A DNA stretch of 64,000 bases from Leptotrichia hongkongensis (GTDB lineage: Bacteria; Fusobacteriota; Fusobacteriia; Fusobacteriales; Leptotrichiaceae), in the NCBI RefSeq assembly GCF_007990635.1, contig NZ_AP019846.1, positions 558,001 through 622,000 of the forward strand. Direction: 5' to 3'. This document shows, one piece after another, positions 9,364 to 30,582 of this stretch. The notes beneath the pieces were generated by a model, which was given only the letters and a program-made list of their open reading frames with translations, was not told where the DNA came from and did no database searches. Made by a program: the position numbers and the translations under genes. The number at the start of each line of letters is the position of its first letter. Position 1 is the stretch's first letter.

Positions 9364-10227
9364 ATGAAAAAAATAATAAGAAATTCTTTTTATTTGGCAT
9401 TGCTAATTATTTCAATGTTTATAATTTCTTGTGCAAAGAAAAATGCTGGAAATGGTAAAAAGGAGGAAAATAAAGAATATAATAGGATTGTTGTGCTGGA
9501 TCCTGCGACTGTTGAAATGATTTATATGCTTGGAGCAGAAGATAAAATCGTGGGAGTTGCTAATTTGGAGCGTTCAAAGGTGTGGCCTGAAGAAAAGGTT
9601 GCAAAACTTGAGAGTGTGGGAACTTTTATGAAGCCATCGCTTGAAAAAATAATTGCCCTAAAGCCTGATTTGGTTATAATGTCAGCTCTTACAGATGACA
9701 ACCTTAATAATGGGCTTAAATCAAATAACATTGAAGCAAAAAGAATTCAGGCAAATTCGATAGAAGAAATATTTACCAATTTTATGGAAGTAGCAAAAAT
9801 GCTGGGGAAAGAAAATGAAGCAAATAAAATAATTGCTGAAAAAAGAGCAAAGCTGGAAGAAATTAAAAAGATGGCAGCAATCAATAAAAAAGGGCTGTTT
9901 GTTATGTCAGCTTCACCGCTTATGGTGTTTGGAAACGATAATTTACCAAATGATATAATGAAATTGTTGAATATTAAGAATATCGCAGAAAATCAGAAGG
10001 GGAGAAATCCAATTGTAACACCTGAATTTATAATGAAGGAAAATCCAGACATTATAATTACGTTATTACCAAACCCAGCTCAAATTGTGGCTACAAATCC
10101 ACAGTTAAAAAACGTAAATGCAATAAAAAATAACAAATTTATTGTTGTAAATTCATCACAGATTTTAAGAGGTTCACCAAGAACTATTGATCAGATTGAA
10201 GAAATTACAAAAGCAGTTACAAAGTAA
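9364..10227 (+). CDS. ABC substrate-binding lipoprotein (HmuT-like)
   Basis: A 287-residue periplasmic-binding lipoprotein of the BtuF/FepB/HmuT class. The signal peptide ends in the lipobox FIISC, with the lipidated Cys at about residue 23. The mature part shows RIVVLDPATVEMIYMLGAEDKIVGV and the helical-backbone features of class III binding proteins, with KPDLVI and NPDIIITL at the lobe cores. It would deliver ligand from the TonB receptor to the permease. Eighteen nt separate it from the ATPase gene. Heme as ligand is inferred from context; no axial ligand can be assigned with confidence. Confidence 0.88.
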   Translation: MKKIIRNSFYLALLIISMFIISCAKKNAGNGKKEENKEYNRIVVLDPATVEMIYMLGAEDKIVGVANLERSKVWPEEKVAKLESVGTFMKPSLEKIIALKPDLVIMSALTDDNLNNGLKSNNIEAKRIQANSIEEIFTNFMEVAKMLGKENEANKIIAEKRAKLEEIKKMAAINKKGLFVMSASPLMVFGNDNLPNDIMKLLNIKNIAENQKGRNPIVTPEFIMKENPDIIITLLPNPAQIVATNPQLKNVNAIKNNKFIVVNSSQILRGSPRTIDQIEEITKAVTK

Positions 10228-10272
10228 TATTCTGAGGAAAATTTATTAAATTAAAATAGAAGGAGTAAAGAA

Positions 10273-11052
10273 ATGGATATAAGCATAGAAAGAATTTTGG
10301 ATCATATGAATAACGATCATGGGGATGTTTTGCCTTTGTATGTAAGGCATTTTTGCAAGAGAGAAGATGTGAAGGAAGCAAAACTGATTGATGTGAATGA
10401 AGAGGGGATGACTTTGCTTGTGAACGGCAATGAGAGAGTTCGGATTAAATTTACGAAAAAAATTGATTTTAAAGGAATCCATCTGGAAATGATAAAGATG
10501 GCAAAGATTGCAAGAAGAGCCTTGAATGTTCCTGCACCTGAGCATTATAAGGATAAAGGGCATCAGGAAGAAGAAAAAATGAAAATGGAAATAAGTGATT
10601 TTATTGGAAATTTCAAATCGGTTATAATTGGAACTGTGTCGGAAGAAGGGGAGCCGAATGCAAGTTATGCACCATTTTTTAAATATCATGGGGACAGTTA
10701 TATGTATATTAATGAAACAGAAGTCTATTTTGAAAATTTTAAGAAAAATAGGAAAGCAAGTTTGCTGTTTATTCAGGATGAAGGGCAGGCAATGGTGGCG
10801 TCAATGCGACAAAGAGTTACATACAATACAGAAATTCAATTTTTAGAAAAAAATGATTACTATAACGAAATTTTAGATGAATTTCAAAAAAATGACTTTT
10901 CAATACAAATGACTAGAAATGTGCCAGTTTTTCATTTGGTAAGGGCAAAATTGGCAAGTGGAAGATATGTGAAAGGGCCTAGACAGGCTTTTGACATCAC
11001 AAAGGACAGAAGAATCGTGGGAGTTACGCTGGGAACGTTGGAAAACAGCTGA
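10273..11052 (+). CDS. hugZ: HugZ-family heme oxygenase
   Basis: A 259-residue HugZ-type protein: an N-terminal DUF2470-like section (ERILDHMNNDHGDVLPLYVRHF) followed by a PNPOx-like split barrel. Blocks matching remembered Helicobacter/Campylobacter HugZ are SYAPFFKYHGDSYMYINE, LLFIQDEGQA, RQRVTYNTEIQFLEK and FHLVRAKLASGRYVKGPRQAFDI. HugZ enzymes open the heme ring with oxygen and release iron. The C-terminus here ends VTLGTLENS and lacks the His-containing tail that carries the distal heme ligand in H. pylori HugZ. Heme binding, or even a non-oxygenase role, may therefore differ. It is embedded in the heme operon. Confidence 0.85.
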   Translation: MDISIERILDHMNNDHGDVLPLYVRHFCKREDVKEAKLIDVNEEGMTLLVNGNERVRIKFTKKIDFKGIHLEMIKMAKIARRALNVPAPEHYKDKGHQEEEKMKMEISDFIGNFKSVIIGTVSEEGEPNASYAPFFKYHGDSYMYINETEVYFENFKKNRKASLLFIQDEGQAMVASMRQRVTYNTEIQFLEKNDYYNEILDEFQKNDFSIQMTRNVPVFHLVRAKLASGRYVKGPRQAFDITKDRRIVGVTLGTLENS

Positions 11053-11058
11053 AAAGAA

Positions 11059-12423
11059 ATGCCAAAGGAAATGCGAAAAGGTAAAATTTCAGAGCCAAAT
11101 CTAGAGGAGCAGGGAATTTTTGCAAAGAGATTTAAGTCACATAATGATTCGGCAGGGATTGTGTCAGATTATTTTCGGAAAAATAAGAAATTTGGAACAG
11201 AAGAAGAGTTGCTGGAAAGAATGGAGAAACCTGCGGAAAATGAACTTGGAACAATTTACGTCCATACTCCATACTGCGATAAAATCTGTTCATTTTGCAA
11301 CTTGAATCGAAAGCAGATTGACAATGATTTGGAAGATTACACAAGTTTTCTTGTCTCAGAGTTTGAAAAATACGGAAAGACGCCTTATATGAAAAGTAAA
11401 AAAATAAATGTAATTTTCTTTGGCGGTGGAACGCCAACTATTTATAAGGAGCATCAGCTGGAACGAATTTTAAAGGCTATAAATGATAACTTTACGTTAA
11501 CAGACGACTGTGAATTTACACTTGAAACAACATTGCACAACTTGAATCCAAAGAAAATAAAAATTCTGGAAAAAGGTGGAGTAAATCGGCTAAGTGTTGG
11601 AATTCAGACTTTTTCTGACAGAGGAAGGAAGATTCTGAACAGGACTTTTTTAAAGGAAGAAACTGTAAAAAGGTTGAAAAATCTTAAAGAAAGTTTTAGT
11701 GGAATGGTTTGTACTGATATAATTTACAATTATCCCGATGAAACGGTTGAGGAGGTGCTGGAAGATGCGAGAATTGTTAAGGAGCTTAAAATTGACAGCA
11801 CAAGTTTTTATTCACTTATGATTTATGAAGGCTCTCAAATGTCTAAGGATATACGAAATAACACGCTGGAGCTGAATTATGAACTGGAAAAAGACTTTGA
11901 ACTGCATGACGCTTTTCTTAAAAGTATGCTTGAAAGTGGAGATTATGAAGTGATGGAGCATACAAAGATTGTTAGAAAAGGAAGAGATGAGTATAGGTAT
12001 ATAAGAAACACACATCAGGGAAAGGATATTCTGCCGATTGGAGTGGGTGCAGGCGGTAAAATTGATAATTTTGAAATTTTTAGATTGAGTCAGGACAAGG
12101 CATTTTATGCAATTTCTTCAGATGAAAATGAGAAGAAAATGAAAAGGATAAGCGGAATTTTACAATATCCAGAAGTTTATTTTGACAAATTAAAAGAATA
12201 TGTTTCAGATGAAATGTTTGATGAGATTTATAAGATTTTTGAAAATTTTGAAAAAAAAGGATACTTGAAAATTTATGACACTCACACAGAACTCACTCCA
12301 GAAGGAATTTTCTGGGGAAACAACATAAGTGCGACAATATTAAAAAAATGTTTAGGAGGTGCAAAAGATGTCAAGTCTAGTAGTCTTTTCCACATCAACA
12401 GGAAACACAAAAAAAATAGCTGA
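11059..12423 (+). CDS. hutW: Anaerobic heme-degrading radical SAM methyltransferase (HutW/ChuW/HmuW)
   Basis: A 454-residue radical SAM enzyme. The [4Fe-4S] motif is CDKICSFC (Cys 73, 77, 80) and the SAM-binding segment is FFGGGTPT. An N-terminal extension (FAKRFKSHND) precedes the HemN-like core. In the family (E. coli ChuW, F. nucleatum HmuW) it methylates and opens heme without oxygen, releasing iron and anaerobilin. The start at 11059 has a weak ribosome site and lies 6 nt after hugZ, suggesting coupling. The 3' end overlaps the flavodoxin gene by 56 nt. One A fewer in the A7 tract near 12343-12349 would instead stop it right at the flavodoxin ribosome site. Confidence 0.9.
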   Translation: MPKEMRKGKISEPNLEEQGIFAKRFKSHNDSAGIVSDYFRKNKKFGTEEELLERMEKPAENELGTIYVHTPYCDKICSFCNLNRKQIDNDLEDYTSFLVSEFEKYGKTPYMKSKKINVIFFGGGTPTIYKEHQLERILKAINDNFTLTDDCEFTLETTLHNLNPKKIKILEKGGVNRLSVGIQTFSDRGRKILNRTFLKEETVKRLKNLKESFSGMVCTDIIYNYPDETVEEVLEDARIVKELKIDSTSFYSLMIYEGSQMSKDIRNNTLELNYELEKDFELHDAFLKSMLESGDYEVMEHTKIVRKGRDEYRYIRNTHQGKDILPIGVGAGGKIDNFEIFRLSQDKAFYAISSDENEKKMKRISGILQYPEVYFDKLKEYVSDEMFDEIYKIFENFEKKGYLKIYDTHTELTPEGIFWGNNISATILKKCLGGAKDVKSSSLFHINRKHKKNS

Positions 12424-21462: not shown

Positions 21463-21894
21463 TTATATGTTTTTAAATTTTCTTAAAATTCTTATTAATT
21501 CCTGTTTTTCTTCGGATGAAAGGATACTATAGGTATTTTTTATTTCATTACGGTGTTCAGGTAAAAGAGTTTCAAATAGTTTTTTTCCCTCATCTGTCAA
21601 ACCTACTAGAAACGCACGCTTATCTGTTGGGCAAGTCTTTTTGTATAACCAGCCTTTCTGTTCCATATTTTTTATAACAACCGTAATATTTCCCGAAGTT
21701 GACAGTGCTTTTTCAATAAGTTCACAAACACGCATTTCACCTTTTGTATAAAGCACATCTAGAACACTAAATTGTGAAACAGTAATCCCTTTCTCCCTAA
21801 AATCTTTTCCAATTTTATTATTAATACTCTTAACAGCCTTTTGCAATATAATCTGCAAATGAATATCCGAATTTTTTTCCCAGCTTGTATCCAT
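21463..21894 (-). CDS. MarR-family transcriptional regulator
   Basis: A 143-residue winged-helix regulator. The HTH runs through ITVSQFSVLDVLYTKGEMRVCELIEKALSTSGNITVVIKNMEQKGW. The wing is KKTCPTDKRAFLVGLTDEGKKLF (about residues 80-105). MarR dimers usually repress their own gene and a neighbouring defence gene until an aromatic or oxidising ligand binds. AAGGAG lies 9 nt before ATG 21894. Its own promoter carries two ACTA-TAGT palindromes, and the downstream FMN reductase carries a third, so a small autoregulated regulon is likely. The inducer is unknown. Confidence 0.92.
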   Translation of the reverse strand: MDTSWEKNSDIHLQIILQKAVKSINNKIGKDFREKGITVSQFSVLDVLYTKGEMRVCELIEKALSTSGNITVVIKNMEQKGWLYKKTCPTDKRAFLVGLTDEGKKLFETLLPEHRNEIKNTYSILSSEEKQELIRILRKFKNI

Positions 21895-21915
21895 AAACCA
21901 TATCTCCTTAACAAT

Positions 21916-21966
21916 TTCACTAATTAGTAATTAATTTATTTTATCACTAGTTAGTGATTTTGTCAA
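21916..21966 (-). promoter_or_regulatory. marR promoter with two palindromic operators
   Basis: Minus strand TTGACA (21966-21961), 17-nt spacer, TAAAAT (21943-21938). The spacer is filled by ATCACTA-GT-TAGTGAT (21943-21958), a perfect 7-bp inverted repeat. A second, weaker copy, TTCACTAATTAGTAA (21916-21930), lies downstream of the -10. This layout fits autorepression. Confidence 0.7.
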
Positions 21967-21970
21967 TATC

Positions 21971-21999
21971 TTTTTGTATATCCAAATAAAAAGAAAAAT
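21971..21999 (+). repeat. 29-nt sequence repeated at 29448
   Basis: An exact 29-nt match to 29448-29476 (TTTTTGTATATCC followed by AAATAAAAAGAAAAAT). The surrounding DNA is also similar. The rest of the gene-free stretch 22000-22299 is AT-rich, with no ORF and only weak hairpins (for example GACAGTA/TACTTGTC near 22160). Confidence 0.6.
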
Positions 22000-22299
22000 A
22001 AGTAATGGAATATAATGAAAATAAACTATTAAAAGTAGATAGAAAAATAAAAGTTTAATTATTGGGAAATTCTGAATAATTAAAGATAGTGGTAAAGAGA
22101 GAACTAAGTATATTAAGTGCTTAAATTATTGTAAATCAGATTTTAGTGTTTGATCGAAGACAGTAATAAATACTTGTCTAGTTATAATTTTGTTAAAATT
22201 AAAATTTTAAATAATAAAATTATGTTCGTCGAAAAAATTATTAGTAAAAAAGATAAAAAAATTGAATAAAATTTTTGTTATAATTTTATTTTTTGAATC

Positions 22300-22327
22300 T
22301 TGACAAAAATAGAAAACAAGCTATACT
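22300..22327 (+). promoter_or_regulatory. Promoter of the sugar-acid-type operon
   Basis: TTGACA (22300-22305), 16-nt spacer, TATACT (22322-22327). The start would be near 22334, about 48 nt before the first ATG. Confidence 0.65.
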
Positions 22328-22381
22328 TTTAGTAGTGTAATAGAGAATAGTAGATAAAAGAGAAATATCTTGGAGGTCAAA

Positions 22382-22843
22382 ATGATATATACGAATTTAA
22401 AAGATACTTTGCAAAATAAAAATATTGCTAAAAAAGTTCAGGAATGTATTGAATATACAAATAAAAATTTAGAGGAACTAAAAAAACTTGATGGTGGAGC
22501 GTATGATATTGAATTAGACATAAAAATGCATGTAAATACCTACGAAACAGGTACAGCGGAAGATAAAATTATGGAAACTCATCTAAAAAATCTAGATGTA
22601 CAAATAATGCTTTGTGGAGAGGAATATGTGGCATTTAATACTTCGGATAATATGAAAATTGAGAAAACAGATAAAGAAAAAGATTTAGTTATTTATTCGG
22701 GCGATGTTTTATTTAACATTTTGTTAAAAGATGAAGATGTATTAGTGTTGTATCCGAATGATGTACATATGCCAGGATTAAAAGTGAAGGAATCAAAGAA
22801 AATAAAAAAACTTGTTTTTAAAGTACCGTTAAATGAACTTTAA
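22382..22843 (+). CDS. YhcH/YjgK/YiaL family protein
   Basis: A 153-residue cupin-like protein of the YhcH/YjgK/YiaL family. Family blocks are METHLKNLDVQIMLCGEEYVAF in the middle and VLYPNDVHMPGL near the C-terminus, where conserved Glu and His residues bind a metal in known structures. Members occur in sialate, ascorbate/diketogulonate and other sugar-acid operons, possibly as sugar isomerases or anomerases. Start at ATG 22382 follows GGAGG by 4 nt; the frame opens earlier with a TTG. It is separated from the following genes by a 250-nt gap with an inverted-repeat element, but lies in the same direction and context. Confidence 0.85.
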   Translation: MIYTNLKDTLQNKNIAKKVQECIEYTNKNLEELKKLDGGAYDIELDIKMHVNTYETGTAEDKIMETHLKNLDVQIMLCGEEYVAFNTSDNMKIEKTDKEKDLVIYSGDVLFNILLKDEDVLVLYPNDVHMPGLKVKESKKIKKLVFKVPLNEL

Positions 22844-22886
22844 TTTTTATTTTTAATTAAAACAAATGAAGTTCAGTCTTTATTAG

Positions 22887-22995
22887 ACCTGTTCGATAAT
22901 TATATTAAATTTGAAATTACAATTAGATAGATATCGCTCTGAAAAGAGTGAGATATCTTAGTTAGAGATAAAAATACAATGTTACCGAACAAGTC
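22887..22995 (+). repeat. TA-flanked inverted-repeat element (MITE-like)
   Basis: 109 nt with ends GACCTGTTCGATAA and, inverted, GACTTGTTCGGTAA, flanked on both sides by TA. The centre is a further palindrome (AGATATC...GATATCT, 22932-22963). It encodes nothing. The TA duplication and GACYTGTTCG ends suggest mobilisation by an IS5/Tc-like transposase, which is inference. It sits between the YiaL-like gene and the next gene of the operon. Confidence 0.65.
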
Positions 22996-23095
22996 TATTA
23001 TTATTTTCAAATTCTATTTAGATATATCTAACTTATTATCAAATTAAAAAAACTTTTGTTTTAAAGTAATTATTTTTTGGAAAGGAGGGAAAAAA

Positions 23096-24118
23096 GTGAA
23101 TGTAAAAAAAATTTTTTCAGATGAGTTACCATCGTGTTATGCAGTTAATCGTATTCAAAAAGATGATAAAGATTATTTGATGGTAGCTTCGGAAGTTGAA
23201 AATTCTTGTTTTGCTTATGATGTAAATGATAATTTTTCAAAAAAAGTTGTCTGGGATACTGTAGGTGGAACAATGAGTATTATTCAAGTTCCAGGTACGT
23301 TGGATTTCTTGGCAACTCAAAAATTTTATCCAGGTTTCAATTCAAAAGAATGTCAAATTGTTTATGGAAAATATAAAGATGAAAACTGGAAAGTAAAAAA
23401 AATCATGGATTTTCCGTATTTGCATAGGTTTGACCTGATAAAACAAAAAGATGGAAAAATATTATTTGTTGGTTGTACGATTGCAAATTCTAAAAAATTT
23501 GTTGAAGATTGGTCTGATAAAGGAAAAATTTTTGTTGGCGAATTTGATTTAGATAACGCAAAATTAAAAAATTTGAAAGAATTACCGCTAAGATTGTTAA
23601 AAAATCATGGATATTATGAAGTTCAAAAAGAAGGATACTCACTTATTACAGCTGTGGAAGGAATTGTGAAATTAACTTATCCTGAGTATTCTGACACAGA
23701 AGACTGGAGACTTGATGTAATTTTTGGCGAAGAAACGAGTGATATTGTTCAAGTTGATTTGGATGGCGACTCTCAAAAGGAAAATGTTATAATTCAAGGA
23801 TTTCATGGAGATACGCTTAGAGTTTTTAATGAAGATTTTTCAAAGGAATTATATAAATATCCAGAGCCAACAGAATTTGGACATGGTATCTGGGGCGGAA
23901 AATTATTCGGGAAAAATGTATTTTTGTATGGTTTTAGAAGTGGAAAAGCTGATTTGTCGCTATTTAGTTATGAAAATGGAAAATTTGTTCAAAATATAAT
24001 TGAAGAAAAATGTGCATCAAGTAATGCAATAGCCTTTGAAAAAAATGGAAAAGCGTATGTATTTTCGGCAAATAATGGAAATCATAAAGTGACGCTTTAT
24101 GAGATTTCAGAAATTTAA
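23096..24118 (+). CDS. Predicted beta-propeller-like protein, unknown function
   Basis: A 340-residue cytosolic protein starting with GTG after GGAGGG. Repeated short beta-type segments such as IVQVDLDGDSQKENVIIQGFHGDTLRVFNED and NAIAFEKNGKAYVFSANNGNHKVTLYEI resemble FG-GAP/VCBS-like blades, and HRFDLIKQKDGKILFVGCTI suggests another blade. No signal peptide. No catalytic motif could be named. Its place ahead of a dehydrogenase, transporter, hydrolase and kinase suggests a role in the same sugar or sugar-acid pathway, possibly as a lactonase or epimerase of propeller fold. That is speculation from context. Confidence 0.65.
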   Translation: MNVKKIFSDELPSCYAVNRIQKDDKDYLMVASEVENSCFAYDVNDNFSKKVVWDTVGGTMSIIQVPGTLDFLATQKFYPGFNSKECQIVYGKYKDENWKVKKIMDFPYLHRFDLIKQKDGKILFVGCTIANSKKFVEDWSDKGKIFVGEFDLDNAKLKNLKELPLRLLKNHGYYEVQKEGYSLITAVEGIVKLTYPEYSDTEDWRLDVIFGEETSDIVQVDLDGDSQKENVIIQGFHGDTLRVFNEDFSKELYKYPEPTEFGHGIWGGKLFGKNVFLYGFRSGKADLSLFSYENGKFVQNIIEEKCASSNAIAFEKNGKAYVFSANNGNHKVTLYEISEI

Positions 24119-24154
24119 AATTTTAGTCATAAATAAAAATACAGGAGGTATCAA

Positions 24155-25108
24155 ATGGCAAAAGAAAAAGTATTAGTAACAGGGATTGTACCAAAAGAAG
24201 GACTTACAGAATTAATGGAAAAATTTGATGTGACTTATTCAGAAGAACCTTTTACTAGAGAATATGTGCTAGAAAATCTGCATAAGTATGATGCACTTTT
24301 ACTGATGGGGCAAAAAGCGGATAAAGAGCTTATAGAAGCAGGAAAAAATTTAAAACTGATTTCACTGAATGCAGTAGGATTTGACCATGTTGACATTGAA
24401 TTTGCAAAGAGTAAAGGAATCGTAGTTGAAAACTCACCACAAGCAGTAAGAGTTCCTACAGCGGAAATGACTTTTGCGTTATTATTGGCTGCAACAAAAA
24501 GATTAGCATTTTATGACAAAATTGTTAGAGCGGGAAATTGGATTGATCCAAGTGAAAGAAAATATCAGGGATTAACATTGGAAGGAGCAACTTTAGGAGT
24601 TTATGGATTTGGTAGAATTGGTCAAACGGTTGCAAAATTAGCTCAAAGTTTTGGAATGAAAGTTTTGTATCATGATACATTTAGACTTAGTGAAGAAAAA
24701 GAAAAGGAATTAAATGTAAAATATGTTGAATTTGATGAATTGTTGAAAAATTCAGATGTAATAACAATTCATGCACCGGGATTACCTACAACAAAAGGTA
24801 AATTTAATAAAGAAGCCTTCAAAAAAATGAAAAATAGAAGTTACCTTATAAATGCAGCTCGTGGTCCAATTATAGTGGAAGCTGATTTGGTTGAAGCATT
24901 GAAAACAGGAGAAATTGCTGGAGCAGGACTTGATGTATTTGAGTTTGAACCTAAAGTTTCAGAGAAATTAAGAGCTTTAGATAGTGTGATTATGGCACCT
25001 CATGCTGGAACGGGAACTGTTGAGGGAAGAATAACTTTGGCAAAAGAAGCTGCTGAAAATATCATTGAGTTTTTTGCAGGAAATTTAAGAAATGTGGTAA
25101 ATCCATAA
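24155..25108 (+). CDS. D-isomer-specific 2-hydroxyacid dehydrogenase
   Basis: A 317-residue NAD(P)-dependent dehydrogenase. The cofactor fold is GVYGFGRIGQTVAKLA (about residue 150). Catalytic Arg lies in NAARGPIIVEADLVEAL, Glu in the EFEP region, and His in APHAGTG. The family reduces 2-keto acids, or oxidises D-2-hydroxy acids such as glyoxylate, 2-ketogluconate, hydroxypyruvate and phosphoglycerate. Next to a sugar transporter, an amidohydrolase and a FGGY kinase it most plausibly acts on a keto sugar acid. GGAGG lies 6 nt before the ATG, and the gene is 36 nt after its neighbour, so it is in the operon. Confidence 0.88.
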   Translation: MAKEKVLVTGIVPKEGLTELMEKFDVTYSEEPFTREYVLENLHKYDALLLMGQKADKELIEAGKNLKLISLNAVGFDHVDIEFAKSKGIVVENSPQAVRVPTAEMTFALLLAATKRLAFYDKIVRAGNWIDPSERKYQGLTLEGATLGVYGFGRIGQTVAKLAQSFGMKVLYHDTFRLSEEKEKELNVKYVEFDELLKNSDVITIHAPGLPTTKGKFNKEAFKKMKNRSYLINAARGPIIVEADLVEALKTGEIAGAGLDVFEFEPKVSEKLRALDSVIMAPHAGTGTVEGRITLAKEAAENIIEFFAGNLRNVVNP

Positions 25109-25140
25109 AAAATTAAAATAAAAATTTTAAGGAGAAAATT

Positions 25141-26586
25141 ATGTTAAAAGTGTTTAGTGATATATTTAATACACTGGGACCAGCAGTAGTTGTACCGATA
25201 ATGATTTTTGTAGTAAGCGTAGCACTTGGAGTGCAAGTTAAAAAATCAATTATGAGCGGACTTTATGCAGGAATTGGTCTTACAGGATTTGGATGGGTAA
25301 TAGGAAGTTTTGCGCCAGCAGTAACTCAGTTAGTTGATCAAATGGTAAAAGCTACAGGATTGAAGTTGGCGGTAGTGGATATGGGATGGCAAATGGGTTC
25401 TAAAATGTCATTTTCAACAACTATCGGACTTTCATTTTTTGTATTTGGGTTGCTGATTGAAATTTTATTATTTGTAATTGGAGTAACTCGTGTATTTGTT
25501 CCATCAAATTTATGGAATAATTTTGGATATATGATTTGGGGAGCAATGGCTTATCAATTTACTCAGAATTTTGCATTATCATTTGCATTTATGATTTTTA
25601 TGTTACTCTATTCACTACTTTTATCAGAAACAGTTGCTGATAGATGGTCTGAATATTATGGAGTTAAAAATGCAACAATCAATTCGATTCATAATGTAGA
25701 ATCATTAGTTCCAGCGATTATTCTTGATCCTCTTTGGAATTTACTAGGACTTCACAAATCAAAATTAAATCCAGAAACATTAAAGACAAAATTGGGAGTT
25801 TTTGGAGAACCGACAATGCTTGGAGCAATTTTAGGACTTATTATGGGAATTTTTGGGAATATTAAATCATTAGGAACTTTGACTGCCTGGGGACAAATTT
25901 TAGGATTTGCCGTTTCGCTATCTGCTGTTATGACAATATTTCCATTAATTACAGGAGTATTTGCAAGAGCATTTGGACCGCTTGCAGAAGCAGTTGAAAA
26001 AAATAAAAAGCAAGATGCTTCAAATGAACGTGAAACTGATAAAAAAAGATGGTTTATTGCTGTTGATGATGGAGTGGGATTTGGAGAGCCTGCAACAATT
26101 ATCGCAGGAGTACTATTAATTCCTGTTATGGCAATACTGTCATTTGTTTTGCCAGGAAACAAAACATTACCAATGGTTGATTTAATTGCAATTCCTTTTA
26201 TAATTGAAGCAATGATAGCTGTTACTAAAGGAAATATTTTAAAAACAATATTAAACGGAATAATTTGGCTAAGTTTAGGACTTTATGCAAGCAGTTTTAT
26301 AGCACCATATTATACAAGTGCGGCAATTGCAACAAAAGCTTTACCTGCAGGGGCAGCATTAATAGCAAGTTTTAATTTGACAGCTAGACCGCTGAATGCA
26401 CTGATTTTCTTCGCTTGGATTTCAGGAAATCCTATATTAATAGGAATTACAATAGTTGTATATCTAGTAGGATTATTCTTCTTAAGAACAAAACGAGAAA
26501 GCATCTATGCTTATTTGAAAAAAATGGCTGATAAAAATAGTGGATTTGAAGGAAGTAAAGAAAAAATATTTATGGGACAAGATTAA
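25141..26586 (+). CDS. PTS galactitol-type EIIC component, without EIIA/EIIB
   Basis: A 481-residue polytopic membrane protein of the EIIC-Gat family. About eleven hydrophobic segments are seen; the family-like blocks are FNTLGPAVVVPIMIFVVSVALGVQVKKSI at the start and DDGVGFGEPATIIAGVLLIPVMAI in the second half. In a complete GatABC system EIIB phosphorylates the sugar during import. No EIIA or EIIB gene lies in this operon, and a cytosolic FGGY kinase does. The protein may therefore use distant subunits or transport without phosphorylation. The ligand is unknown. AAGGAG precedes ATG. Confidence 0.85.
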   Translation: MLKVFSDIFNTLGPAVVVPIMIFVVSVALGVQVKKSIMSGLYAGIGLTGFGWVIGSFAPAVTQLVDQMVKATGLKLAVVDMGWQMGSKMSFSTTIGLSFFVFGLLIEILLFVIGVTRVFVPSNLWNNFGYMIWGAMAYQFTQNFALSFAFMIFMLLYSLLLSETVADRWSEYYGVKNATINSIHNVESLVPAIILDPLWNLLGLHKSKLNPETLKTKLGVFGEPTMLGAILGLIMGIFGNIKSLGTLTAWGQILGFAVSLSAVMTIFPLITGVFARAFGPLAEAVEKNKKQDASNERETDKKRWFIAVDDGVGFGEPATIIAGVLLIPVMAILSFVLPGNKTLPMVDLIAIPFIIEAMIAVTKGNILKTILNGIIWLSLGLYASSFIAPYYTSAAIATKALPAGAALIASFNLTARPLNALIFFAWISGNPILIGITIVVYLVGLFFLRTKRESIYAYLKKMADKNSGFEGSKEKIFMGQD

Positions 26587-26631
26587 ATTAGAAAAATTGA
26601 ATTATAATTATGTAATTAAAGGAGAAAAAAT

Positions 26632-27621
26632 ATGAAAAAAATAGATGCACATGCACATATTGTAAAAGCAGTTGCTGGATTCAATAAAAAAGGGAGAATG
26701 ACTCCGCTTGGAAATGGAAAAGTAATATGGGATGATGGAGATGTAACTCGGTTATTTCCTGAAGGTTATGGAGATACAGAATTTACAGCAGAATCATTTT
26801 TAAAGTTGCTGGATGAAAATGGTATTGAAAAATCTGTACTTTTACAAGGACATTTACATGGATATCAAAATTATTACACTTATCTCACAATAAAAAAATA
26901 TCCAGAAAGATTTATAGGAGCCTTTTCAGTAGATCCTTATGCTAAGGAAGCGCTTGAAATTACTAAAAGATATGTAGAAGTTTTAGGATTTAGGGCAATA
27001 AAATTTGAAATAAGTGAAGATGGAGGGATTCATGGATATAGAAATACAAATCCATTTAGACTAGATACAGATCCGTTTGTAACAAGATTATTTAACTATT
27101 TGGCAGATTATCCTGGATTTGTTGTTACAGTAGATTATGGTAATTGGGATCAAATAAGCCATCAGCCACAAGCGATTGCAAATCTGGCAAAACTTTATCC
27201 TAATATTGATTTTGTAGTTTGTCATTTATCATTTCCGCATGCAGCAACTCCTGAAAGAGTGAGAGCGGATCTTAATATGTGGAAGGAATATCCTAATATT
27301 TATACTGATTTATCAGCTATTCAAGATATAGATAGCCCTGAAGATTATCCATTTCCAAATTCGTACAAAAATGTAACTATTGCAAAAGAAATTTTGGGAG
27401 CAAAACGACTTATTTGGGGAACAGATTCTCCTTGGTCTGCAACATTTAACACTTATAATGAATTAGCAACTTGGCTTGAAAATGTAGATATTTTTACAAA
27501 AGAAGAATTAGAGGATGTTTTCTATAATAATGCTCAGAGAGTGTATTTTAAACCTGAAGCAGTAAAAGCTATAAAAGAATCTGTTGATCCTGCAACAGAA
27601 GGAATAGATATAGATATTTAA
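26632..27621 (+). CDS. Amidohydrolase-family (TIM-barrel) hydrolase
   Basis: A 329-residue member of the amidohydrolase_2 class. The metal motif HxH is DAHAHI (His7, His9). Further ligands are likely His in CHLSFPH and Asp in IWGTDSPW, the usual end-of-barrel acid. Family enzymes hydrolyse lactones or amides or decarboxylate aromatic acids. Insertion of about 80 residues between strands one and two (HGYQNYYTYLTIKKYPERF) is normal. Together with the kinase and 2-hydroxyacid dehydrogenase I infer a lactonase for a sugar lactone. Spacing of 45 nt to the EIIC gene supports one operon. Confidence 0.85.
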   Translation: MKKIDAHAHIVKAVAGFNKKGRMTPLGNGKVIWDDGDVTRLFPEGYGDTEFTAESFLKLLDENGIEKSVLLQGHLHGYQNYYTYLTIKKYPERFIGAFSVDPYAKEALEITKRYVEVLGFRAIKFEISEDGGIHGYRNTNPFRLDTDPFVTRLFNYLADYPGFVVTVDYGNWDQISHQPQAIANLAKLYPNIDFVVCHLSFPHAATPERVRADLNMWKEYPNIYTDLSAIQDIDSPEDYPFPNSYKNVTIAKEILGAKRLIWGTDSPWSATFNTYNELATWLENVDIFTKEELEDVFYNNAQRVYFKPEAVKAIKESVDPATEGIDIDI

Positions 27622-27642
27622 GAATTTTAAAATATTTAATTT

Positions 27643-27674
27643 GAAATACAAGGAGCTTTTGTTTCTTGTATTTC
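27643..27674 (+). other. Intergenic hairpin within the operon
   Basis: GAAATACAAG pairs perfectly with CTTGTATTTC over a 12-nt loop. No T run follows, so it is not a normal terminator. It may stabilise or process the mRNA between the hydrolase and kinase genes. Confidence 0.5.
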
Positions 27675-27708
27675 TTAATATTGACTTTTTGTAAAAGGAG
27701 AATAGTTT

Positions 27709-29226
27709 ATGAAATATTTTTTGAGTATAGATTATGGGGGAACAAACACAAAAGCTATTATTTTTGATGAGAATGGAAATGAAATTGGTGTATCTTCTTT
27801 TCATACGATGAGAAAAGAAGTAAAACCAGATTACAGGGAAGTTGACTTAAAAGAAACTTCAGAAGCTATTTATGATTCGGTAAAAAAAGTTCTAAAAAAA
27901 TCAAATCTAACTGGAAGAGACATCAGTGCAGTCGCTTGTGTTGGTCACGGAAAAGGACTTTACGTACTAGATAAAAATCACAAGGAATTTATAAACGGAA
28001 TTTTATCAACAGATGGAAGAGCGGGAGAATTAGCTAATAAATTTGAAAATAAAATAAAAAAAATATGGAATAAGACAAGACAGCATGTTTTTGGCGTTCA
28101 AAATCCGGTATTGTTACGTTGGTTAAAAGAAAACGAACTTAAAGCTTATAATAATATAGGAGCAATTTTATCTGCAAAGGATTATGTTCGTTTTAAACTA
28201 ACTGGAAAAGTAAATCAGGAATATGGAGATGCTTCGGGAAATCATTGGATTAATTTTGAAAAAGGATCCTATGATGATGAAATTTTAGAATTTTTTGAAA
28301 TTCCTGAAATGAAAGAAGCACTGCCGCCATTAGTTGATTATAATGAAATTGTCGGAGGAGTTACAAAAGAGGTTGCTGAAATTACAGGGCTTTTAGAAGG
28401 AACTCCTGTTGTAGGTGGATTGTTTGATATTGATGCTTGTGCAATAGGTTCTGGGGTTTTAGACAGCTCTACATTTAGTGTTATTGCAGGAACTTGGAAT
28501 ATAAATACTTATCCATCGAAAACACCTGCATCATATGAAAGCGGTCAAATGAACTCGTATTTTCCAAATCGAGATTTTTTAGTAGAAGAATCGAGTCCAA
28601 CTTCTGCTGGAAATCTAGATATTATTTTAAATATGCTGATGTCTGAAGAAATGTCCAGCCTAAAAGAAACAGAAAGTATTTATATTGGACTTGAAGCATT
28701 TTTAAAAGATACCACGGCTTCTTATAGCAAAGTTATATTTTTGCCATTCTTGTATGGAAGTAACACCCGTACTGAGGCACCATCATGTTTCTTGGGACTT
28801 ACAGCGACAACTACAAAATTAGAAATGGTTCGTTCTGTTTATGAAGGAATTGTATTTTCTCATAAACAGCACTTGGATAAACTGGAAAAAAATTTAGGTA
28901 AAAGGCCAGATGTAATTCGTATTTCAGGAGGTGGAACTAATTCAAAACAATGGTGTCAAATTTTTTCTGATATTTTAAATATTCCTGTTGAAACTTTAGA
29001 AGGAAGTGAGTTAGGTGGACTTGGCGGAGCGATTGCAAGTCAGCAGGCAATAGAAAAAACTTCGTTAGAAGACACTATAAAAAAGATGGTTAGAATAAAA
29101 GACAGATACGAGCCTGTTGAAGAAGAACATAAAAAATATATAAAAAAATATGAAGTATATCAGGAAATCCTAAAAAGTATGGATACAACTTTTCATAGTT
29201 TAAAAAAATTAAATGAAGAATTATAA
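27709..29226 (+). CDS. FGGY-family carbohydrate kinase
   Basis: A 505-residue sugar kinase. The N-terminal phosphate-1 motif is SIDYGGTNTKAIIFDENG. The catalytic base Asp is in FDIDACAIGSG. The C-terminal FGGY signature region is RISGGGTNSKQWCQIFSDILNIPVE with GGLGGAIA after it. It resembles the L-xylulose kinase/YgcE branch more than glycerol kinase, by pattern only. It would phosphorylate a free ketose or sugar acid. This fits the lack of PTS EIIA and EIIB genes for the neighbouring transporter. AAAAGGAG precedes ATG, and a strong terminator closes the operon. Confidence 0.88.
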   Translation: MKYFLSIDYGGTNTKAIIFDENGNEIGVSSFHTMRKEVKPDYREVDLKETSEAIYDSVKKVLKKSNLTGRDISAVACVGHGKGLYVLDKNHKEFINGILSTDGRAGELANKFENKIKKIWNKTRQHVFGVQNPVLLRWLKENELKAYNNIGAILSAKDYVRFKLTGKVNQEYGDASGNHWINFEKGSYDDEILEFFEIPEMKEALPPLVDYNEIVGGVTKEVAEITGLLEGTPVVGGLFDIDACAIGSGVLDSSTFSVIAGTWNINTYPSKTPASYESGQMNSYFPNRDFLVEESSPTSAGNLDIILNMLMSEEMSSLKETESIYIGLEAFLKDTTASYSKVIFLPFLYGSNTRTEAPSCFLGLTATTTKLEMVRSVYEGIVFSHKQHLDKLEKNLGKRPDVIRISGGGTNSKQWCQIFSDILNIPVETLEGSELGGLGGAIASQQAIEKTSLEDTIKKMVRIKDRYEPVEEEHKKYIKKYEVYQEILKSMDTTFHSLKKLNEEL

Positions 29227-29231
29227 AAATT

Positions 29232-29279
29232 AAAAATATTATCCATTTAAAAAAGATAAAATAAGTGGGTAATATTTTT
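29232..29279 (+). terminator. Terminator of the sugar-acid-type operon
   Basis: AAAAATATTATCCA (29232-29245) pairs with TGGGTAATATTTTT (29266-29279), 14 pairs including one G-T, ending in T5. Confidence 0.85.
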
Positions 29280-29411
29280 ATTAGTTATAGAAATATTTAT
29301 CTTAACTTGCATATTGAGTATTGAAAAAATATTTATGTTTATAGTAGAAGTATTTTATTACAATTAGTATTTCATTTCATATTATCTTAATTTATATTCA
29401 TAAAATTTCAA

Positions 29412-29515
29412 TTTAACAATTTCATTAATTATTAGCTTTATCAATAATTTTTGTATATCCAAATAAAAAGAAAAATTGATTTTTATTAATTCATAAGGTA
29501 TAATTAAAAAATAGA
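29412..29515 (+). repeat. Decayed copy of the marR upstream region
   Basis: TTAACAATTTCATTAATTATTA followed by a 29-nt exact match (29448-29476) parallels 21908-22045 in order and spacing. The operator palindrome is largely lost. The whole gene-free interval 29280-29640 is otherwise AT-rich with no ORF. Confidence 0.5.
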
Positions 29516-29647
29516 TAGTGAATAAAGATAAAAAATAAATAGAGTGTAAGATTACTTAAAATTCTAAGTAGTCTTTTTTGGAATAAAATATTTGTGATAA
29601 TTGTTTTATTTACTAAAAGAAAAATTATTTATATTTATTAAGAGATA

Positions 29648-29656
29648 TGCTATAAT
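29648..29656 (+). promoter_or_regulatory. Extended -10 promoter of rapZ
   Basis: TGCTATAAT (29648-29656). No strong -35. The start of rapZ is 51 nt downstream. Confidence 0.6.
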
Positions 29657-29706
29657 AATTTTAAGTGAAATGAAAAATAAATTTATTTTGTAAAGAGGGC
29701 TGTTTT

Positions 29707-30582
29707 ATGGATAAAGCAAAAAAAGAGCTGGTTATAATAACTGGAATGAGTGGGGCTGGAAAATCTGAGGCAATGAATTTTTTTGAGGACAGGGAATACT
29801 TTTGCATTGACAATTTTCCTATTAATTTATTTCAGTATTTGAATGAGATATTTATTAGCAGCGAGAAGAGAAATCGGGTGGCAATAGCGATAGATGTTAG
29901 AAATCAGGAGTTTATAGAACAATTGACAAAACAGCTCGAAATACTGGATAAAGAGGAAATTTTGCATACTATGATTTATTTGGATGCAAGAACAGATGTT
30001 CTTTTGAGCAGATATGAACTTTCCAGAAGAAAACATCCTCTAAATCTATATGATACATTACTTGCAAATATAAAGGCGGAGCGTAAAATTATAAAAGATT
30101 TTATGGTAAAAGCCGATTTAGTGATTGATACAAGTACATTATCGGTAAAGGAACTTCAAGAAATTTTAGAAAAGGAATTTTCAGGTCAAAGAAAAAAAAT
30201 AAATATTAATTTAACATCTTTTGGCTTTAAATATGGAATTCCACTAGATTTGCATTTAATGTTCGATTTACGATTTTTACCAAATCCTTACTACATTGAT
30301 AACTTAAAAAATAAAACTGGAAATCATAAGCAAGTTCAGGATTATGTAATGGGACTGCCAGAAAGCCAAGAATTTTACAAAAAGCTGTTAGATATGCTTT
30401 TGTATCTGATTCCAAAATATGAAAAAGAAGGGAAATCACATTTGCGTATAGGAATTGGATGTTCAGGAGGACAACACCGTTCAGCTACTTTCGTGAATAA
30501 ACTTTATGATGACCTTTCGCAAAAGATGGACTATCATATTGGAAAATTTCACAGGGAAGTGGGAGAGAAAAAAGAAATTTAA
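29707..30582 (+). CDS. rapZ: RNase adapter protein RapZ/YvcJ
   Basis: A 291-residue nucleotide-binding protein. The Walker A motif is GMSGAGKS (residues 13-20), then DREYFCIDNFPINLF. Later family blocks are FKYGIPLDLHLMFDLRFLPNPYY and IGIGCSGGQHRSATFVNKL near the C-terminus. In E. coli RapZ binds GlmZ/GlmY RNA and glucosamine-6-phosphate to tune GlmS. In Firmicutes the homologue YvcJ is an NTPase linked to competence. Which role applies here is not visible. The gene is 53 nt before uvrC in the same direction, so they probably share a transcript. Confidence 0.95.
   Translation: MDKAKKELVIITGMSGAGKSEAMNFFEDREYFCIDNFPINLFQYLNEIFISSEKRNRVAIAIDVRNQEFIEQLTKQLEILDKEEILHTMIYLDARTDVLLSRYELSRRKHPLNLYDTLLANIKAERKIIKDFMVKADLVIDTSTLSVKELQEILEKEFSGQRKKININLTSFGFKYGIPLDLHLMFDLRFLPNPYYIDNLKNKTGNHKQVQDYVMGLPESQEFYKKLLDMLLYLIPKYEKEGKSHLRIGIGCSGGQHRSATFVNKLYDDLSQKMDYHIGKFHREVGEKKEI

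Follow-up and report, generated by a model that had tools for sequence, protein, structure and literature searches.

The window analysed here, a stretch of 64,000 nucleotides, is C1:558001-622000 of the two-contig, 2.28-Mb genome of Leptotrichia hongkongensis. It contains at 22382-29226 a cluster of six genes, all on the plus strand, and this text deals with the tie of that cluster to the ula operon of L-ascorbate (vitamin C) catabolism and with the putative function of its beta-propeller protein. In a check of the open reading frames of the window, all six genes are open at these coordinates, and Pfam and NCBIfam agree, except for the propeller protein, with the gene names that had been given in an earlier note on this DNA. 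The cluster consists of the following features:

22382..22843, plus strand: YiaL-like protein (YhcH/YjgK/YiaL family), 153 amino acids from an ATG; PF04074, 98.7 bits
22844..23060, plus strand: intergenic hairpin-forming stretch; RNA fold -36 kcal/mol, z -1.93
23096..24118, plus strand: seven-bladed beta-propeller protein, 340 amino acids, GTG start; structure model with a predicted local distance difference test score (pLDDT) of 85
24155..25108, plus strand: D-2-hydroxyacid dehydrogenase; PF02826, 205 bits, and PF00389, 91 bits; GFGRIG nucleotide-binding motif
25141..26586, plus strand: GatC-type EIIC permease; PF03611 (EIIC-GAT), 218 bits
26632..27621, plus strand: Amidohydro_2 hydrolase; PF04909, 127 bits
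27709..29226, plus strand: FGGY sugar kinase, xylulokinase-like; FGGY_N/FGGY_C

A purine-rich, ribosome-binding-like stretch precedes every start, and the gaps between the genes (252, 36, 32, 45 and 87 bases in gene order) are tight except for the 252 bases after the YiaL-like gene. The hairpin-forming stretch in this gap may be a regulatory element, e.g. a leader; an Rfam search of 21800-29800 gave one sub-threshold chance match only, and none at the hairpin. A second genome of the genus (G070, locus L047) has kept the hairpin stretch as well as the identical six-gene order, including the YiaL-like gene, with protein identities of 91-98%, and the propeller is missing from the other 11 genomes of the genus that were searched. 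Five of the genes, namely those for the propeller, the 2-hydroxyacid dehydrogenase, the EIIC, the amidohydrolase and the FGGY kinase, form a core that recurs in streptococci, where no YiaL-like gene was seen in the clusters examined. Conservation of the six-gene order in G070 and of the five-gene core in another phylum rules out a chance grouping.

As to the single proteins, the YiaL-like protein lies above the cut-off of the NCBIfam model TIGR00022 (89.8 bits) and is proposed to be a mutarotase or ring-opening helper, and the D-2-hydroxyacid dehydrogenase is proposed to be a 2-ketoacid reductase that converts 2,3-diketo-L-gulonate to 3-keto-L-gulonate. The amidohydrolase, a proposed lactonase, weakly resembles the 4-sulfomuconolactone hydrolase model of NCBIfam and has kept HxH, His and Asp (HAH at 7, CHL at 197, GTD at 263). 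In case of the FGGY kinase, the best NCBIfam model is XylB (255.8 bits, which is below the cut-off of 380) and the nearest PDB chain is the xylulose kinase 2itm; the proposed substrate is L-xylulose, or else 3-keto-L-gulonate.

Linkage of the cluster to the ula operon

A family-wide search of 335 Streptococcaceae genomes yielded 17 with a strong match to the propeller, a count that leaves out a weak match in G672 (E 5.5e-4). All 17 neighbourhoods were viewed, and 16 of them contain the five-gene core in one order, the other genome (G154) having a stand-alone propeller only, without the core, and ulaDEF elsewhere. In 13 of the 16 core loci, the adjoining genes include at least ulaE from the ula operon, and 12 begin with ulaA. 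One further locus shows ulaG only, with the contig ending there, so that any ula gene adjoins the core in 14 of 16 cases, and the last two core loci stand alone in genomes that have ulaDEF elsewhere. The typical streptococcal layout is ulaA-B-C-D-E-F with the core set inside the operon, followed by a PRD regulator and ulaG. Usually, the core is accompanied by a LacI-type regulator and a trailing gene, c5 (245-264 amino acids), for which Pfam and NCBIfam gave no match in S. sanguinis; c5 is absent from the window genome, and none was observed at the G730 locus. Scanning with the EIIC found 16 loci, nine of them streptococcal with the five-gene core in the order of the window, and seven from Limosilactobacillus/Lactobacillus. 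Among Bacilli at large the propeller is rare, with two convincing matches in 398 evenly drawn genomes, of which one belongs to the centre genome; two further matches, weak (E about 5e-4) and by eye resembling FG-GAP, are not counted here.

The ula assignments are firm in S. sanguinis, where UlaA (415.8, cut-off 380), UlaD (331.9, cut-off 250), UlaE (496, cut-off 200), UlaF (475, cut-off 369) and UlaG (672, cut-off 306) all score above their NCBIfam cut-offs. In the window genome, UlaD passes with 335.8 and UlaA just misses its cut-off of 380 with 365.8. The latter genome has a complete ulaG-A-B-C-D-E-F operon (L032) at about 1.98 Mb, and this operon lies apart from the cluster by 1.4 Mb, unlike in most streptococcal loci. 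As the core is found beside ula in streptococci and as the window genome contains a complete ula operon, the cluster is very probably tied to the ula pathway and constitutes a branch of vitamin C catabolism. The earlier note, which was based on gene content, had missed this tie, the recurrence in streptococci and the identity of the propeller. It had not seen the gene combination described, and indeed no known operon with the same composition and an assigned substrate was found in the openly licensed literature, nor any account of this cluster or of a propeller that substitutes for UlaD.

The ula operon ulaABCDEF-ulaG would thus have its lower pathway in common with the cluster, the cluster lies in or beside it in most streptococci, and relatives of the propeller occur inside ula operons. 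The differences are that the cluster has its own carrier, lactonase-like enzyme, reductase and kinase, that it lacks phosphorylation genes of the phosphotransferase system (PTS), and that it has a propeller for UlaD. One streptococcal genome (G701; L085, 6378-9867) has the EIIC split in two frames and a short FGGY frame (279 amino acids) beside intact ula genes, and the cluster can therefore decay on its own.

The propeller protein and the decarboxylase UlaD

In the window's phylum, the propeller occurs in 9 of 98 genomes, namely in the window genome, in G070 and in seven genomes of four genera, and in all seven it lies within a ula operon lacking ulaD. The operon order is C-A-B-propeller-PRD-G-E-F in g2, g7 and g10 and G-A-B-C-E-F-HTH-propeller in g11 (HTH, helix-turn-helix); in G083, the operon is seen only as C-A-B-propeller plus the start of the PRD gene on a 4.2-kb contig. 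Pairwise identities among the window type and the two propeller types of ula operons are about 28-36%. A census of the phylum found true UlaG in 29 of 98 genomes and UlaD of at least 42% identity in 23 of 98, after rows of UlaD under 42% identity (G083, G059 and extra weak matches in G081, G088 and G090) and of UlaG under 53% identity (G051, G097, G088, G016, G041, G089 and extra weak matches in G090 and G047) had been dropped. The UlaG-positive genomes without such a UlaD are seven, and they are identical to the seven with a propeller in their ula operon. The propeller is thus present in 7/7 UlaD-less versus 2/22 other UlaG genomes, the latter two being those with the window-type cluster (Fisher p 2.3e-5; by genus 4/4 versus 1/11, p 0.004; kinship uncorrected). 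In the seven UlaD-less ula operons, no added gene other than that of the propeller could encode the missing enzyme.

The ula operon of the window genome matches that of g11 gene by gene (UlaG 82%, UlaF 77%, the extra regulator HTH common to both 66%, UlaB 64%, UlaA 63%, UlaE 63%, UlaC 50% identity) and differs from it by ulaD between C and E. This UlaD (L032 9330-9992) is 93% identical to that of streptococci, whereas the other Ula proteins of the genome are 46-68% identical (S. sanguinis), and UlaD is found at 90-92% in 11 genomes of the window's family. As the high identity is confined to UlaD, ulaD alone looks acquired in a single-gene transfer, a pattern that looks like the exchange of one decarboxylase for the other.

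The same operons bear on a swap of roles within the cluster, in which the amidohydrolase would be the decarboxylase and the propeller a lactonase of the SMP-30/gluconolactonase type. The amidohydrolase superfamily does include metal-dependent decarboxylases, lactonases do exist among propellers, and the HxH, His and Asp are kept in the amidohydrolase of the cluster. But the UlaD-less ula operons contain the propeller together with UlaG and no such amidohydrolase, so that the step missing there is decarboxylation, and the swap appears very improbable.

A natural loss of upper ula genes has occurred in Streptococcus sp. LQJ-218 (G102, L017), which shares 97% identity with S. sanguinis SK49 across 10 kb. 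A deletion (L018 1910-5051) has removed ulaA to nearly all of ulaD, and ulaG is broken by an internal stop and frame breaks. The genes for UlaE, UlaF, LacI, propeller, 2-hydroxyacid dehydrogenase, EIIC, amidohydrolase and FGGY kinase and the next gene are stop-free, with ratios of nonsynonymous to synonymous substitution rates (dN/dS) of 0.02-0.30; ulaE looks recombined (dS 0.56). UlaD is present in 15 of the 16 cluster-bearing streptococci, and ulaD DNA was matched in 18 of 21 genomes searched, the exceptions being G102, G065 and G092. As G102 keeps the cluster and ulaE/F after having lost the ascorbate 6-phosphate route, the junction of the two pathways is placed after UlaD, and it is likely that the cluster enters the ula pathway independently of UlaD.

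This retention has to be weighed against a branch of the Yia kind, in which the FGGY kinase would phosphorylate 3-keto-L-gulonate, UlaD would decarboxylate the product, and the propeller would rearrange or ring-open 2,3-diketo-L-gulonate, or similar. YiaL, the reductase, the kinase and UlaD/E/F do parallel yiaKLMNO-lyxK-sgbHUE, and UlaD is available in the window genome and in nearly all cluster-bearing streptococci. A WD40-fold enzyme that reportedly uses 2,3-diketo-L-gulonate (Stack et al. 2020) would also fit such a role of the propeller. However, G102 keeps the cluster with ulaE/F in the absence of ulaD, and the seven UlaD-less ula operons, which handle a phosphorylated substrate and have the UlaG lactonase, add only the propeller as possible missing enzyme. 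We consider such a branch unlikely. Somewhat less unlikely, though still an outside candidate, is the use of another sugar acid or lactone that leads to L-xylulose or L-ribulose, with ula genes serving as shared lower pathway only. The retention of just ulaE/F with the cluster in G102 and the two streptococci that hold the cluster apart from ula agree with this, as do the GatC-like character of the EIIC, judged by its solved relatives, and the wide range of sugar acids used by 2-hydroxyacid dehydrogenases, FGGY kinases and Amidohydro_2 proteins. It would leave unexplained why the ula operons with relatives of the propeller are precisely those that lack UlaD, unless the propeller accepts several beta-keto acids.

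The propeller protein has no Pfam or NCBIfam match at E <= 0.001, including no match to the TIM barrel family PF00215, and to this extent the earlier statement that it has no known family still stands. It does not stand in structural terms, as the protein is seven-bladed, is related to aldos-2-ulose dehydratase (AUDH), and appears to replace UlaD in sister operons. The model has 28 strands in its seven blades, and the propeller fills the 340 amino acids. When the 1000 best Foldseek chains were re-ranked by VIA-align, AUDH topped the list for the window-type model (Z 30.5, root-mean-square deviation 3.0, 328 aligned residues; next Z 28.2) and also for the g11-type model (pLDDT 89; Z 35.8, root-mean-square deviation 2.5, 335 aligned residues, 16% identity; next 28.2). 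Foldseek alone placed human LGI1 and WD40 propellers first, and AUDH is not among the best 50 of its matches. Sequence searches linking the propeller to the PDB sequence of AUDH gave chance matches only. The common element is the same seven-bladed propeller over 328-335 residues at 10-16% identity. The window protein consists of the propeller only, without further domains, and differs in this from the AUDH chain of about 880 residues, of which the aligned part reaches to ~435. The titles of the AUDH entries (4a7k, 4a7y, 4a7z) mention a metal in the active site and a keto-sugar intermediate of the reaction, and PMC8023676 groups AUDH with VCBS-like propellers. In the alignment, His110, His171, His237 and His263 are invariant in 14 of 14 operon-borne propellers and may serve as metal ligands. 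Two stand-alone streptococcal paralogues (L062 8885-9910 and L063 10756-11778) both lose His237, one of them also His263, and these are possibly non-catalytic.

Mechanistically, a zinc bound in the propeller of AUDH polarises the substrate's C2 ketone, and UlaD works via a metal-bound enediolate, and the decarboxylation of a beta-keto acid by a metal-containing propeller is therefore chemically plausible. Judged from gene context and fold, the chances are even that the propeller is a metal-dependent 3-keto-L-gulonate decarboxylase. It would take the same pathway position as UlaD, as the complementarity of the genes suggests, with an unrelated fold, i.e. a propeller instead of a TIM barrel (PF00215), and the two would be analogous at most. 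A wider claim is more tentative and falls below an even chance, namely that AUDH-related propellers are a second, structurally unrelated class of keto-gulonate decarboxylases that replaced UlaD in several genera, and that in the window they act on the unphosphorylated substrate, with the EIIC as plain carrier of dehydroascorbate. If true, an unnamed propeller family would obtain a function, decarboxylase chemistry would gain an unexpected fold, and the annotations of UlaD-less ula operons would need correcting.

The EIIC permease and its missing partners

The EIIC-GAT membrane domain clearly exceeds its cut-off of 24.2 bits. With the EIIC family profile, the galactitol EIIC 9u82 is the sole solved relative at E <= 0.001 (E 7.8e-52), and no UlaA is among the solved relatives at this threshold. 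Galactitol use itself was rejected, as the cluster contains no GatA/GatB/GatD-type genes. A genome-wide census yielded five matches to EIIB (PF02302) and four to EIIA_2 (PF00359), none of them within the cluster or close to the EIIC: one pair lies in a single 658-amino-acid frame at 16.3-17.1 kb of the window, one pair is UlaB/UlaC, and of the remaining matches, the three EIIB belong to other PTS loci and the two EIIA each stand alone (some of these labels were assigned by eye). A dedicated EIIA/EIIB for the EIIC is thus absent, as had been noted before, and the idea that the EIIC works as a non-phosphorylating carrier gains support from G102, where ulaABC are gone at the locus while EIIC and kinase are intact. 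The retention of the EIIC without adjoining ulaABC argues for its independence of UlaB/UlaC, and from this gene pattern a non-phosphorylating carrier seems probable.

Could the EIIC nevertheless phosphorylate its substrate like an ordinary PTS permease, with UlaB/UlaC as borrowed partners? Both are encoded in the window genome, where sharing is possible, and they adjoin the cluster in most streptococci. In such a system, however, the FGGY kinase that accompanies the EIIC in the clusters would be hard to understand, as would G102 and the seven Limosilactobacillus/Lactobacillus loci (L021-L027, EIIC at about 10000-11413), in which an EIIC of 57-59% identity has no EIIA/EIIB recognised close by. 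Borrowed partners are thus quite unlikely. The seven lactobacillar loci also lack other recognisable cluster genes close by, with the exception of a distant 2-hydroxyacid dehydrogenase in three of them. A non-phosphorylating EIIC would be a natural case of a PTS permease without phosphorylation, and G102 would be a ready natural test strain.

The EIICs listed from plasmid records are ~25-30% identical to the window EIIC, four Lactobacillaceae records excepted. On the Levilactobacillus brevis plasmid pBRV522 (L030, 2801-13482), a 56% identical EIIC has as neighbours UlaG, UlaD, two FGGY kinases, a HAD hydrolase and epimerases of the UlaE/UlaF type. The annotation of this stretch contains no EIIA/EIIB, and the plasmid protein is another candidate for a non-phosphorylating EIIC.

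Proposed pathway, related systems and flanking repeats

From gene content, ula linkage, the retention pattern of G102, the complementarity of propeller and UlaD and the propeller fold, we infer a route including all of its reactions, the substrate and the carrier mode of the EIIC. The EIIC would import an oxidation product of ascorbate in unphosphorylated form, with dehydroascorbate as the most likely candidate. The amidohydrolase would open the lactone to 2,3-diketo-L-gulonate, with YiaL possibly aiding the opening of the cyclic hemiketal, and the 2-hydroxyacid dehydrogenase would reduce C2 to yield 3-keto-L-gulonate. The propeller, acting as a metal enzyme in the manner of aldos-2-ulose dehydratase, would then decarboxylate 3-keto-L-gulonate to L-xylulose, and the FGGY kinase would produce L-xylulose 5-phosphate, although the order of decarboxylation and phosphorylation may be reversed. 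UlaE and UlaF, which are encoded elsewhere in the genome, would finally yield D-xylulose 5-phosphate. Such a UlaD-independent vitamin C branch with L-xylulose 5-phosphate as its point of entry into the ula pathway could, taken as a whole, equally well be right or wrong. Dehydroascorbate as the substrate falls slightly short of that, and the substrate could instead be 2,3-diketo-L-gulonate or a different lactone that yields L-xylulose. The C6 hydroxyl of dehydroascorbate is tied up in a hemiketal ring, which would explain an import that is uncoupled from phosphorylation and a later kinase step. If true, the cluster would give an oral-type anaerobe an additional way into vitamin C fermentation, and the use of oxidised vitamin C by host-associated anaerobes and streptococci would be explained.

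Two known systems resemble this proposed branch. In the L-ascorbate pathway of Ralstonia that was reportedly described by Stack et al. in 2020, a WD40-type enzyme is said to act on 2,3-diketo-L-gulonate and the lactonase is said to belong to the amidohydrolase superfamily, and these would be the counterparts of propeller and amidohydrolase. The Ralstonia route is reportedly oxidative, via L-lyxonate with a PdxA-type enzyme and without a kinase, whereas the six genes of the cluster include a kinase and no PdxA-type decarboxylase. Among plasmid records matched by the amidohydrolase, two annotated neighbourhoods were viewed and contain no PdxA/gluconolactonase context; the third is unannotated. 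The yia-sgb genes of E. coli encode an analogous reduction, phosphorylation and decarboxylation via LyxK and a UlaD homologue. The hint of the earlier note at the yia-lyx (diketogulonate) region proved apt, as a YiaL-like protein, a 2-ketoacid reductase, an FGGY kinase and UlaD/E/F-type enzymes are present and the end product would be the same. The cluster differs from yia-sgb by its additional amidohydrolase and propeller, by a D-2-hydroxyacid dehydrogenase that is not of the YiaK family, and by an EIIC instead of the TRAP transporter YiaMNO, to which PMC4324149 assigns a role in diketogulonate uptake.

Several points weigh against the proposed route. Dehydroascorbate was chosen solely because every gene then finds a use, and the activities of all cluster proteins are predictions. 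In UlaD-bearing genomes, the kinase could act on 3-keto-L-gulonate in a LyxK-like manner, which would leave the role of the propeller undecided. G083, one of the seven genomes with a ula-borne propeller, does encode a UlaD-like protein in a different operon, if a divergent one (32% identity, 183.7 bits with a UlaD cut-off of 250), and as the seven represent four genera and two operon types, the independent events are maybe only two. G102 is one genome, in which the genome-wide search was made by DNA and for ulaDEF only, with ulaABC judged at the locus. The AUDH propeller family PF22301 is matched by 3 of 14 members, at best with 20.1 bits (cut-off 27), and not by the window propeller itself. 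Moreover, propellers that stand alone, away from ula, occur in three streptococcal genomes, in two of them as a second propeller and in the third as the only one; the family is thus not confined to a decarboxylase role.

The operon of G083 that encodes the divergent UlaD-like protein (L103, G083:C21, 1304-7556) also contains EIIB- and EIIC-like genes, transketolase-like genes, an aldolase/UlaF-like gene and a gene for a 310-amino-acid hydrolase-like protein (names partly by eye), and the substrate of this PTS-type operon is probably another lactone.

The cluster of the window is flanked by an exact direct repeat of 29 bp, of which the window contains 2 copies with 0 expected:

21971..21999, plus strand: 29-bp exact direct repeat, left copy
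29448..29476, plus strand: 29-bp exact direct repeat, right copy, on the other flank of the cluster

The right copy looks as if the region upstream of marR had been duplicated in truncated form, and 21908-21926 is also like 29413-29431. The flanking repeat is possibly a scar of the insertion of the cluster.

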